From Chloroflexia bacterium (lineage in GTDB: Bacteria; Chloroflexota; Chloroflexia; Thermomicrobiales; CFX8): a stretch of 39,837 nucleotides of DNA. The translations under genes were made by a program, and so were the position numbers. The DNA lies in contig JAUIIK010000036.1 in the NCBI GenBank assembly GCA_030431755.1, forward strand, positions 1-39,837. The letters are read 5' to 3'. Of this stretch, positions 3,968 to 6,679 are shown in pieces; the first letter of the stretch is position 1; every line of letters starts with the position of its first letter. The notes below the pieces were generated by a model. It had not been told where the DNA came from. It saw only the letters and a program-made list of their open reading frames with translations, and did not search any database.

Positions 3968-5047
3968 ATGGTTGAGTTCGATACCGACTTTCCGAGAATC
4001 TCCGACGAGCATCTATCCCAGTTCGTCATCGATGTCTTCACCAGCTATGGAATGCGTCAGTGGGACGCCGAGATCTCGGCCGAGATCCTCGTGGCCTCCG
4101 ATCTGCGCGGCATCGACTCGCACGGCGTGCCGCGGATGGCCTTCTACGTCGACCGGCTCAAGCAGGGCGGCTTCAACCTCGAGGCGGAGCTGGAGGTTGT
4201 CAAGGAGTCGGCCGGCGCGATCCGCTTCAACGCCAACAATGGCTTCGGCCCGCCGATGGCCTACAAGGCGATGGAGCGCTGCCTCGAGAAGGCCCGCGAA
4301 GCCGGCGTCTGCATGGCGTCGGTCGGCCACTCGAACCACTACGGCATCGCCGGGTACTACGCGACGATGGCGCTCGACCACCCTGGCATGGCCGGCATCT
4401 CGATGACTAATGCGACCCCGTTGCTCGTCCCGACGCATGGCAAGGTCGCCCTGCTCTCGACAGCCCCGATCGCCGCCGCCTTCCCGGCCGGGAACGAAGC
4501 TCCGTTTGTCCTTGACGGCGCGACGACCGCCGTCGCCTGGGGCAAGGTCGAGATCGCCCGGCGCAACAAGAAGGCGATCCCTGCCGGCTGGGCGGTCGAC
4601 GAGGAAGGGCTGACGGTTACCGATCCCTTCGACGCTCGCGCCTTGATGCCGCTCGGCGGCGAGCGCGATACCAGCGGCCAGAAGGGCTATGGCCTGTCAC
4701 TGATGGTCGAATTCCTCTGCTCACAGCTCTCGGCCTCGCTCTGGTCGCGCGATGTGACCGGCTCGCGGGTTGAGGAGATCGTGCCCTCCGACACGAGCCA
4801 CGCCTTCATCGCAATCGACATCTCCGCCTTCCGCGATCTGGACGAGTACGCCGCCAGCGCCGACGAGCTGCTCGGCAGCCTGCGGGCGACTGCGCCGGTT
4901 GCCGGCCAGACGCGCGTCATGGTCCCCGGCGACCCCGAAGCCGAGGCCTACGCCGACCGCACCGAACGCGGCATCCCCGTCCACCCCGAGGTCGTCGACA
5001 CCCTCCGCGGCATCGGGACCGAAGCGGGCGTCGCGGTTCCGTTCTGA
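3968..5047 (+). CDS. Ldh family (malate/L-lactate-type) NAD(P)-dependent oxidoreductase
   Basis: This 359-residue protein has the hallmarks of the malate/L-sulfolactate/ureidoglycolate dehydrogenase family (Ldh_2 fold): DLRGIDSHGVPRM near residue 40, the NNGFGPP stretch, the catalytic-region SVGHSNHYGIAGYY, GISMTNATPLLVPTHG, and GYGLSLMVE toward the C-terminus. These soluble enzymes oxidise 2-hydroxyacids with NAD(P); the substrate cannot be read from sequence. I chose the ATG at 3968, preceded by GAGAGAG; a GTG at 3929 is possible but adds residues outside the family pattern. The last 11 codons plus the first base of the stop codon are the left copy of a perfect 34-bp direct repeat (5012-5045), so the 3' end of this gene appears to be an integration site. 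Confidence 0.9.
   Translation: MVEFDTDFPRISDEHLSQFVIDVFTSYGMRQWDAEISAEILVASDLRGIDSHGVPRMAFYVDRLKQGGFNLEAELEVVKESAGAIRFNANNGFGPPMAYKAMERCLEKAREAGVCMASVGHSNHYGIAGYYATMALDHPGMAGISMTNATPLLVPTHGKVALLSTAPIAAAFPAGNEAPFVLDGATTAVAWGKVEIARRNKKAIPAGWAVDEEGLTVTDPFDARALMPLGGERDTSGQKGYGLSLMVEFLCSQLSASLWSRDVTGSRVEEIVPSDTSHAFIAIDISAFRDLDEYAASADELLGSLRATAPVAGQTRVMVPGDPEAEAYADRTERGIPVHPEVVDTLRGIGTEAGVAVPF
5012..5045 (+). repeat. Left copy of 34-bp direct repeat (attachment-like) at the 3' end of the Ldh gene
   Basis: Identical over all 34 bases to 5954-5987. It encodes the last 11 residues of the dehydrogenase and ends one base into its TGA stop. Upstream of the core the two sites stay partly similar, and most differences are transitions. 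Confidence 0.85.
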
Positions 5048-5112: not shown

Positions 5113-5141
5113 TTGACTAAGATAGGTTCCAACATTAGAAT
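5113..5141 (+). promoter_or_regulatory. Strong sigma70-type promoter before the NYN gene
   Basis: TTGACT (5113-5118), a 17-bp spacer, then TAGAAT (5136-5141): each hexamer is one base off consensus. The expected start is near 5148, directly before two stable hairpins. The surrounding 60 bases (5101-5160) contain 24 G/C, against about 70% in the dehydrogenase gene. Confidence 0.75.
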
Positions 5142-5147
5142 TAGCGT

Positions 5148-5209
5148 ATATCGCCCGCACCGCTTCGGTGGTGCGGAAGGAGCCGTCCTTCGGGGCGGTT
5201 TCCGCTTTT
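5148..5209 (+). ncRNA. Structured leader or small RNA: two cUUCGg hairpins plus intrinsic terminator
   Basis: Hairpin 1 spans 5155-5176: a 9-bp stem with one G-U pair, closed by a C(UUCG)G tetraloop. Two bases later hairpin 2 spans 5179-5203: a 10-pair stem with one bulge, again closed by C(UUCG)G, followed by GC-TTTT (5206-5209). A near-consensus promoter ends at 5141, so a transcript of about 62 nt is predicted to stop just before the NYN start codon at 5217. It could be an attenuator leader, or an independent small RNA. The structure is read directly; the role is inference. Confidence 0.5.
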
Positions 5210-5216
5210 CTAGCCC

Positions 5217-5911
5217 ATGAAAGTCAACGTCTATATCGACGGCTTCAATTTCTACTATGGGGCCGTGAAAAAAATACGCAGTACAAGTGGCTCGATTTAC
5301 GCGAATTCTGCGAGCGTTCCCTGCCAGATCACGCTGTTCATCGCATCAAGTACTTCACTGCACAAGTAAATGCTCGACCAAACGATCCTGATCAACCAAT
5401 CAGGCAGCAGACTTACTGGCGAGCACTAGCGACGCTACACCGATTCTATATACACACTGGAAATTTCAGGGAGCGAAAGAAGGTGCTTCCTCTGCACTCA
5501 GATGATCCTCTTGCGCCGTCACCGCCACAACTGAGATTTGTCGAAGCTATGGTATCTGAAGAAAAGGGATCTGACGTCAATCTTGCAACCGAGCTGCTCA
5601 GCGACGGATTTCGCGGCGACTTCGAGGCAGCAGTGATTGTCTCCGACGATTCCGATCTCATTAGCCCGATCAAGGCAGTCCGACAACACCTGCAATTACA
5701 GGTGGCAGTACTGAACCCGCAACTGGAGTTCGATCCACTCACAGGTAAGAAACGACATAGAAAAGATCTTGCTCGTGCGGCTACAGCCGGCAAGCGTCAA
5801 ACTCAGTGGTTCTACGAGCACATCGATCGCAGCTTGCTCGCAGGCTGTCAGTTCCCTGACCCTGTCGTCGACAAACGCGGGCGTCCAATCCACAAGCCAT
5901 CTACTTGGTAG
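5217..5911 (+). CDS. NYN-domain (PIN-like) ribonuclease, reading frame broken in an A7 run
   Basis: The N-terminus MKVNVYIDGFNFYYGAVKK starts at ATG 5217 in one frame. The rest, from NTQYKWLDLREF onward, is in the -1 frame, and the two join at seven consecutive A (5268-5274). Together they form a complete NYN protein of about 231 residues: the first acidic residue in VYIDGFN, a second in EKGSDVNLA, a third pair in VSDDSDL, and the usual tail of the QFPDPV...KPSTW type. NYN domains are PIN-like metal-dependent RNases. The break may be a disabled gene, slippage on the A-run (ribosomal or transcriptional), or a homopolymer sequencing error. No clear Shine-Dalgarno site precedes the ATG; a terminator hairpin does. 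The gene is A+T-richer than its flanks and lies between two 34-bp direct repeats, which suggests transfer. Confidence 0.8.
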
Positions 5912-5923
5912 ATCTACTTCTGT

Positions 5924-5989
5924 TATGCCGCGCTTGTTAACACCTTTCACGGTATCGGGACCGAAGCGGGCGTCGCGGTTCCGTTCTAG
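5924..5989 (+). pseudogene. 3'-terminal fragment of an Ldh-family gene
   Basis: Read in the frame matching the intact gene, this stretch gives a diverged segment (ALVNTFHG versus EVVDTLRG in the full gene) followed by the identical 11 residues and a TAG stop. It looks like the displaced or element-borne end of a related dehydrogenase gene, as left by insertion at a gene's 3' end. No start or other part of such a gene is present. Confidence 0.6.
5954..5987 (+). repeat. Right copy of 34-bp direct repeat (attachment-like)
   Basis: Identical over 34 bases to 5012-5045. It closes the 0.94-kb NYN cassette. The next base begins a palindrome that precedes mntA. Confidence 0.85.
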
Positions 5990-6010: not shown

Positions 6011-6027
6011 GTTGGAATGGAGTGATG

Positions 6028-6333
6028 ATGCTTGTTCAGAGTCGCATTGAAGTCGACGAGGATCAGCTAGCCGCCATATGCCGCAAGTTCCACGTACAGG
6101 AGTTGGCCCTGTTCGGGTCCGTGCTACGTGACGACTTCAGCGACGATAGTGATATTGACATTCTCGTTGAGTATGAGCCATGGGCTCGCATCGGACTATT
6201 TCATCACTTCAAGCTCGAAGAGGCCCTGGCACAGATACTGGGTCGCGATGTCGACCTAGTATCTAAAGGGGGACTCCGATCTATTCTGAAGGACGAGGTG
6301 TTGAGTACGGCTGAAGTTATCTATGCGACGTGA
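6028..6333 (+). CDS. mntA: MntA-type nucleotidyltransferase antitoxin
   Basis: A minimal nucleotidyltransferase (MNT) of about 101 residues. The GSX10DXD motif is complete at 6115-6159 (GSVLRDDFSDDSDID). In the characterised MntA-HepT systems this enzyme neutralises the HEPN RNase by adding AMP to a tyrosine. Three start codons are possible (GTG 6022, ATG 6025, ATG 6028); GGAG at 6019-6022 favours 6028 or 6025. It overlaps hepT by 11 bp, so the pair is translationally coupled. The gene is A+T-richer than the surrounding chromosome. Confidence 0.92.
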   Translation: MLVQSRIEVDEDQLAAICRKFHVQELALFGSVLRDDFSDDSDIDILVEYEPWARIGLFHHFKLEEALAQILGRDVDLVSKGGLRSILKDEVLSTAEVIYAT

Positions 6334-6679
6334 GGCTCTCTACCTATCCGACATCGTTGAAGCCGCTGATGAAATTGCCAAGTATCTCTCCGATACAGAC
6401 GAAACGTCATTTCTCACGAATACAATCAGGCAAAGCGCGGTTGCGTTCCAACTAGCAATCATTGGCGAAGCCGTGGCCAACCTGCCCGACGATCTCCGTA
6501 CGAGGTATCCCGATGTCGAATGGAGGGCTGCACGCGGCCTGCGGAATATCATCGTTCACAGCTATTTTGCGATCAATTGGACGATTATCTGGGAAACTGC
6601 GACGGCAGACGTGCCTCTCCTGCGAGAACAAATAACAGCGATTCTCGACAACGAGTTTCCTGAGATGCCATCGACGTAG
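6323..6679 (+). CDS. hepT: HepT-type HEPN RNase toxin (DUF86)
   Basis: A 118-residue helical HEPN protein of the DUF86/HepT family. The RX4HXY signature is intact (RNIIVHSY, about 6542-6565): Arg and His form the RNase site, and the Tyr is the residue modified by MntA in known systems. The upstream GEAVANLPDDLR helix region also fits the family. The ATG at 6323 lies inside the end of mntA, with no good ribosome site of its own, consistent with coupled translation. One 60-base stretch (6361-6420) has 27 G/C, well below neighbouring genes, so the pair was probably acquired. All key residues of both partners are present, so the system should be functional. Confidence 0.92.
   Translation: MRREALYLSDIVEAADEIAKYLSDTDETSFLTNTIRQSAVAFQLAIIGEAVANLPDDLRTRYPDVEWRAARGLRNIIVHSYFAINWTIIWETATADVPLLREQITAILDNEFPEMPST

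Follow-up and report, generated by a model that had tools for sequence, protein, structure and literature searches.

A twin-hairpin RNA paired with HEC-09-type NYN ribonuclease genes: a candidate RNA-regulated module

The window analysed here, a stretch of 39,837 nucleotides from a Chloroflexia bacterium, carries a promoter and two short hairpins directly in front of a gene for a NYN-type ribonuclease. The question raised by this locus is whether the hairpins form an RNA that regulates the nuclease, and if so in trans or as the leader of its mRNA, or whether hairpins and gene are neighbours by chance.

The locus and its nuclease

An earlier note on this DNA had described a promoter of the form TTGACT-N17-TAGAAT, two adjacent hairpins with UUCG loops, a U tract, and then the start codon of the NYN gene lacking a ribosome binding site. 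All of these elements are present as claimed, the promoter exactly where the note had put it, and ATG 5217 does start a NYN protein; what had escaped notice is that the frame of this gene is broken at a run of adenines. The elements of the locus are the following:

4986-5045, + strand: left copy of the direct repeat (60 nt, Ldh_2 3' end), 85% identical to that on the right, with 34 nt matching exactly
5113-5141, + strand: sigma-70-type promoter TTGACT-N17-TAGAAT, 10 of 12 consensus matches
5151-5210, + strand: twin-hairpin RNA (covariance model R1, 50.7 bits, the window copy being itself among the 40 training sequences)
5155-5176, + strand: hairpin 1 of the RNA, UUCG loop
5179-5202, + strand: hairpin 2 of the RNA, UUCG loop
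5206-5209, + strand: U tract 3' of hairpin 2
5217-5911, + strand: NYN (HEC-09-like) nuclease gene, probably a pseudogene, from profile matches and frame analysis
5268-5274, + strand: A7 run (AAAAAAA), site of the NYN frame break
5928-5987, + strand: right direct repeat, displaced Ldh_2 3' end, with the C-terminus GIGTEAGVAVPF and its stop in frame

The −10 element stops 9 nt ahead of the start of the RNA model, a spacing that is equal in the relatives, and 3' of the hairpins the sequence CGCTTTTC leads to the NYN ATG at 5217, before which no Shine-Dalgarno motif was found. Scans of the window by consensus gave results at chance level both for promoters (1 found, 1.2 expected) and for terminators (2 found, 3.0 expected). 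The RNA, which folds better than shuffled sequences (z = −3.35) and is the only sequence in the entire genome of 5.1 Mb that R1 matches at E ≤ 0.01, is considered non-random because it is conserved, consensus matching alone not being significant.

The NYN protein begins, with the N-terminus MKVNVYIDGFNFYYGAVK, in the frame of 5217 and continues in that of 5168-5911. Since the protein is read in one frame in 68 of 74 homologous loci, a programmed −1 frameshift at the A7 run is less likely than decay or a sequencing error, and the window copy is probably a decayed gene. The promoter and the hairpins are intact; the RNA is without the GC-GC clamp and the stem 2 bulge of the family consensus, which is a further sign of drift.

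The NYN protein matches the PADLOC profile HEC-09 (PDLC04163), with E-values from 1e-27 to 1e-87 (2.8e-27 for the window fragment, 9.3e-87 for the homologue at locus L095), as well as PHROG 7929, of unknown function, and Pfam NYN, while no NCBIfam model matches it. An AlphaFold model (pLDDT 95.5) matched the NYN structures 2qip/VPA0982 and the NYN domain of MARF1, and the acidic residues D8, D114, D139 and D141 are invariant in an alignment of 15 NYN sequences; the predicted MARF1-type fold bears out the earlier remark that NYN is not the ToxN fold. HEC stands for Hma-embedded candidate, and antiviral activity of other HECs is reported in PMC12988326 and PMC11411939, which cite Payne et al. 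2024. The match to this defence candidate is among the points in favour of the reading proposed below. No Hma (helicase-methylase-ATPase) locus was found around the window NYN gene, whose neighbours are Ldh_2, MntA/HepT-like and Peptidase_M14 genes.

Conservation of the RNA and its linkage to NYN

Relatives of the NYN protein are numerous in 400 genomes of the phylum, the best of them at 45-54% identity, and the promoter with its twin hairpin recurs upstream of them. From 40 aligned leaders the covariance model R1 was built. The query made from the alignment was successful in genome contigs, where a search with the single sequence had given no match, and Rfam, at gathering as well as lax thresholds, gave no match for the window RNA or the 33 relatives scanned, including for the abiF motif RF03085. 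The consensus comprises a C/UUCG/G hairpin 1, a GC-GC clamp, a bulge of one nucleotide in stem 2, and a U-rich stretch thereafter; over its ~60 nt nearly all positions are paired or conserved, with no variable guide-like region. The statement of the earlier note that tandem repeats are lacking holds for the window but not for the relatives, about 15 of which (e.g., L047, L066, L085, L058) carry two whole copies of the RNA in tandem.

The 40-leader alignment showed compensatory changes at 18 of 19 pairs, with 100 cells changed on both sides, where shuffled alignments gave 29.0 ± 4.3 and slid ones at most 34. A MAFFT alignment of 51 RNAs from many phyla (those of NYN-selected loci and some from viral contigs), made without the R1 structure, showed double changes at 18 of 20 pairs and 177 double-change cells against 44.7 ± 5.2 after shuffling, figures that include a partly built-in structural fit since the sequences were chosen by R1, whereas the linkage to NYN is free of such bias. 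From this second alignment RNAalifold recovered both hairpins unaided.

The linkage was evaluated on 80 named loci, picked by the NYN protein alone in a collection separate from that used to train R1. A match to R1 was found in 77 of them and adjoins NYN in 76, so that, on the earlier question of whether the hairpins are conserved before homologous NYN genes, the answer is that they are. To judge from the record titles, the loci span ~16 phyla, among them Chloroflexota, Actinomycetota, Acidobacteriota, Armatimonadota, Gemmatimonadota, Planctomycetota, Verrucomicrobiota, Pseudomonadota, Myxococcota and Spirochaetota. A clear RNA was not seen at some NYN relatives (L053, L264, L265 and several viral contigs). 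Over 55 whole genomes R1 gave 102 matches, 76 of them no more than 400 nt from NYN, against a chance expectation of ~0.0008 per match; a match was present in 37 of 38 genomes with NYN and in 1 of 17 without, and in this single genome a NYN remnant lies 3' of the RNA. The pairing of RNA and NYN in genomes is thus directly observed, and the strong covariation together with the 76 linked loci argues that the two belong to one module. The other 26 RNAs are solo, at least 6 of them beside NYN remnants; such RNAs may have a role of their own. Conversely, 5 of 61 NYN matches are without RNA. Several of these are truncated or broken, or have an RNA that is weak or lies at a distance. That RNA without NYN is commoner than NYN without RNA is as expected if NYN is harmful when the RNA is missing.

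A twin-hairpin RNA that is related but divergent, with another loop, accompanies the canonical HEC-09 clade; it was found beside NYN genes of Chloroflexota and Thermus and in viral contigs. Strong matches to R2, a model of these divergent RNAs, were mostly training copies with a few solo RNAs, and those with E around 1e-3 were put down to chance. Solo RNAs of the R2 type lie near position 1501 in L321, L322, L323, L325 and L326, and no NYN gene was recognised within 1.5 kb of them.

Gene order, loss of NYN and mobility

Of the 76 loci, 58 have the RNA as a leader, ahead of NYN and read in its direction; in 15, of which 14 are titled Actinomycetota, it follows NYN on the other strand (convergent), and in 3, all from Acidobacteriota, the two are divergent; an arrangement other than the leader was also observed in L101, L092 and L099. 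In the leader form, U residues follow hairpin 2 and the gap from RNA to start codon is ~14 nt. Averaged over the named loci and a small number of viral, plasmid and phylum ones, the promoter matches were 9.3 of 12 for leader, 8.3 for convergent and 11 for divergent RNAs, against 7.2, 6.6 and 6.7, respectively, in shuffled sequences.

An orthologous site compared in four genomes carries promoter, RNA and NYN in one of them; the other three have lost NYN and kept the RNA. In these three genomes 48 of 50 RNA positions are invariant (96%), against 58% and 29% identity in the flanking intergenic DNA and ~90% in the neighbour genes. The conserved promoter and solo RNA stand near position 2000 in L108, L109 and L111, and the genomes carry NYN copies elsewhere, on which these RNAs perhaps act as immunity RNAs.

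Direct repeats of the Ldh_2 3' end bracket the module in the window, and the displaced right copy, which still encodes the same C-terminus, marks it as an insertion. The two copies are spaced by 942 nt; repeats of the 3' end of the upstream gene are similarly spaced in L142 (2202-2312/3142-3252, 940 nt) and L143 (2211-2316/3133-3238, 922 nt), giving cassettes of nearly constant size, ~0.92-0.94 kb. Exact repeats of at least 16 nt flank 7 of 42 modules, compared with 2 of 1722 mismatched pairs, and the GC content of the window module is 0.51 versus 0.67 for Ldh_2. No integrase is present in the cassettes. The module therefore seems, from its sequence context, to travel as a compact cassette without an integrase of its own, as though it inserts at the ends of genes and brings a replacement tail along.

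Just downstream of the cassette in the window (6022-6679), AT-rich genes for a MntA-like nucleotidyltransferase and a HepT-like RNase form a pair resembling a type VII toxin-antitoxin. A natural 3.5 kb E. coli plasmid, pCPF6.4 (L260), carries a twin-hairpin leader at 1266-1321, 15 nt before NYN, with GC clamp and bulge and a fold z-score of −5.1. Further twin hairpins, downstream on the minus strand of the E. coli plasmids L260-L262, were discarded as the RNA partner, and only the L260 leader was kept; the discarded ones resemble the ColE1 RNA I/II region.

Proposed function and comparison with known systems

The reading that we favour, with a probability of about 0.6, is a two-part module in which a ~60-nt twin-hairpin RNA, transcribed from its own promoter, is a trans-acting inhibitor of the adjacent HEC-09-type NYN RNase. 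The RNA would be produced in excess; hairpin 2 would be a weak transcription stop and, in the leader arrangement, part of the transcripts would be read through into NYN. The RNA would bind NYN in trans and keep it inactive or cap its active site until it is lost or outpaced, for instance when a phage shuts down host transcription, and the freed NYN would then cut RNA and stop growth or phage production. By analogy with known systems NYN is most likely inhibited by the RNA; expression of the RNA, its binding and the toxicity of NYN are presumed, and the phage trigger is suggested by likeness to RCd22 and AvcI. Several lines of evidence speak for an inhibitor in trans: the convergent and divergent RNAs retain a promoter of their own, the RNA survives the loss of NYN with 48 of 50 positions invariant, and it occurs in tandem copies in relatives, which recalls type III antitoxins. 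The computed evidence would nevertheless fit an activating cofactor or a substrate RNA as well as an inhibitor. The RNA-regulated NYN RNase in a new arrangement, which had been one of two proposals of the earlier note, is the best reading, the inhibition itself being an extrapolation.

A broader alternative, which we consider doubtful, is that of a new class of RNA-protein immune module spread over ~16 phyla as a mobile cassette of ~0.93 kb, in which the RNA would be a sensor or required partner and solo RNAs would protect against NYN located elsewhere. The chief rival, also rather unlikely, is an RNA-protein effector in which the RNA does not inhibit NYN but is needed by it as a guide, activator, sensor or scaffold. 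Tight linkage and conserved structure fit such an effector equally well, a CRISPR-associated NYN that trims crRNAs indicates that NYN enzymes handle structured RNAs (PMC11346440), and solo RNAs lacking a NYN in cis could serve copies elsewhere in the same genome; but an RNA of ~60 nt, almost wholly paired or conserved, leaves no variable guide-like region, solo NYN is less frequent than solo RNA, the opposite of what a merely accessory RNA would give, and tandem copies suit titration.

It is distinctly improbable that the RNA is a cis-acting leader, either an attenuator or a feedback device in which NYN would cleave its own 5' leader to limit expression. The 58 loci in leader arrangement, with U residues after hairpin 2 and the ~14 nt gap to the start, are what such a leader would look like, and RCd22 also acts in cis (PMC12373285). 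Yet attenuation, which the earlier note had offered as its simpler option, fails as the general function: it cannot explain the 15 convergent RNAs, mostly of Actinomycetota, and the 3 divergent ones, which have a promoter of their own, nor the RNAs that stay conserved at sites from which NYN has been lost. For RNAs in the leader form, cis control could be no more than an additional role. Finally, an ordinary terminator or repetitive hairpin element lying by chance before a pseudogene is hardly credible, because, even if the promoter and terminator scores of the window are at chance level and its NYN is frameshifted, the window genome has a single R1 match, the RNA tracks NYN genome-wide, and both covariation and promoter conservation are evident.

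The RNA-NYN module is widespread and apparently undescribed: no paper linking NYN or HEC-09 to an adjacent RNA was found in the literature, in a search that scarcely covered preprints, so that one may have been missed. If the module is as we propose, an RNA half is added to a nuclease family known hitherto only as a single-protein defence candidate, and this partner could explain how a harmful RNase is safely carried on plasmids, prophages and chromosomes. If the RNA is an inhibitor, RNA-controlled toxins would extend to the NYN/PIN-like fold, found also in animal RNases such as MARF1. The plasmid pCPF6.4, as a recognisable natural copy, offers a convenient E. coli system.

Among known systems, HEC-09 (PDLC04163) is matched by the NYN protein, and its canonical clade has the related RNA described above; PADLOC lists the protein alone, the RNA partner being apparently undescribed. 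The CRISPR-associated NYN ribonuclease (PMC11346440) is likewise an RNase tied to structured RNA and defence, but it sits in type III CRISPR loci, trims crRNA and has no dedicated twin-hairpin RNA. The DUF3800 RNA motifs (RF02968 and others) are similar in being structured RNA families named after a neighbour gene of unknown function; by contrast, DUF3800-IX is multi-branched, with other structure and sequence, and DUF3800 is not NYN. A DUF3800-IX RNA (RF02968, 54 bits) lies at 4058-4119 in L095, ~450 nt downstream of the HEC-09-type NYN, in a stretch where no DUF3800 gene was recognised by eye; with its different, multi-branched fold and its different sequence, this RNA was rejected as the NYN partner.

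A functional parallel is AbiF/RCd22 (RF03085; PMC12373285), in which a small RNA has a housekeeping promoter, a terminator and read-through into a nuclease-like gene. RCd22 binds and neutralises AbiF and is active in cis and in trans (PMC12373285), and AvcI, which restrains AvcD, is a further precedent for an RNA holding an enzyme (PMC10511110). The protein family of AbiF (Abi_2/AbiD/F) differs from NYN, and the RNAs are unlike, with no Rfam match here. Type III toxin-antitoxins (ToxIN, CptIN, TenpIN; AvcID, PMC10511110) share the occurrence on plasmids and viral contigs and a structured RNA that has a promoter of its own and a weak terminator and is placed directly before the gene of a (here proposed) harmful enzyme; the tandem RNA copies of some loci are a partial likeness. 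An RNA gene with promoter and terminator next to the putative toxin gene is found in the window (5113-5210) and at 76 of 80 loci, although side and strand vary; tandem repeats, absent from the window, amount to two whole copies in about 15 relatives; and the fold of the AlphaFold model is NYN rather than ToxN. Because the toxin fold differs, the module is not a classical type III member, to which it is likened by arrangement, with a putative neutralisation; its RNA is a twin hairpin, usually in a single copy, and the order of RNA and NYN may be convergent or divergent rather than always that of an upstream RNA on the same strand. As these loci show, such RNAs need not be upstream of the gene of the putative toxin.
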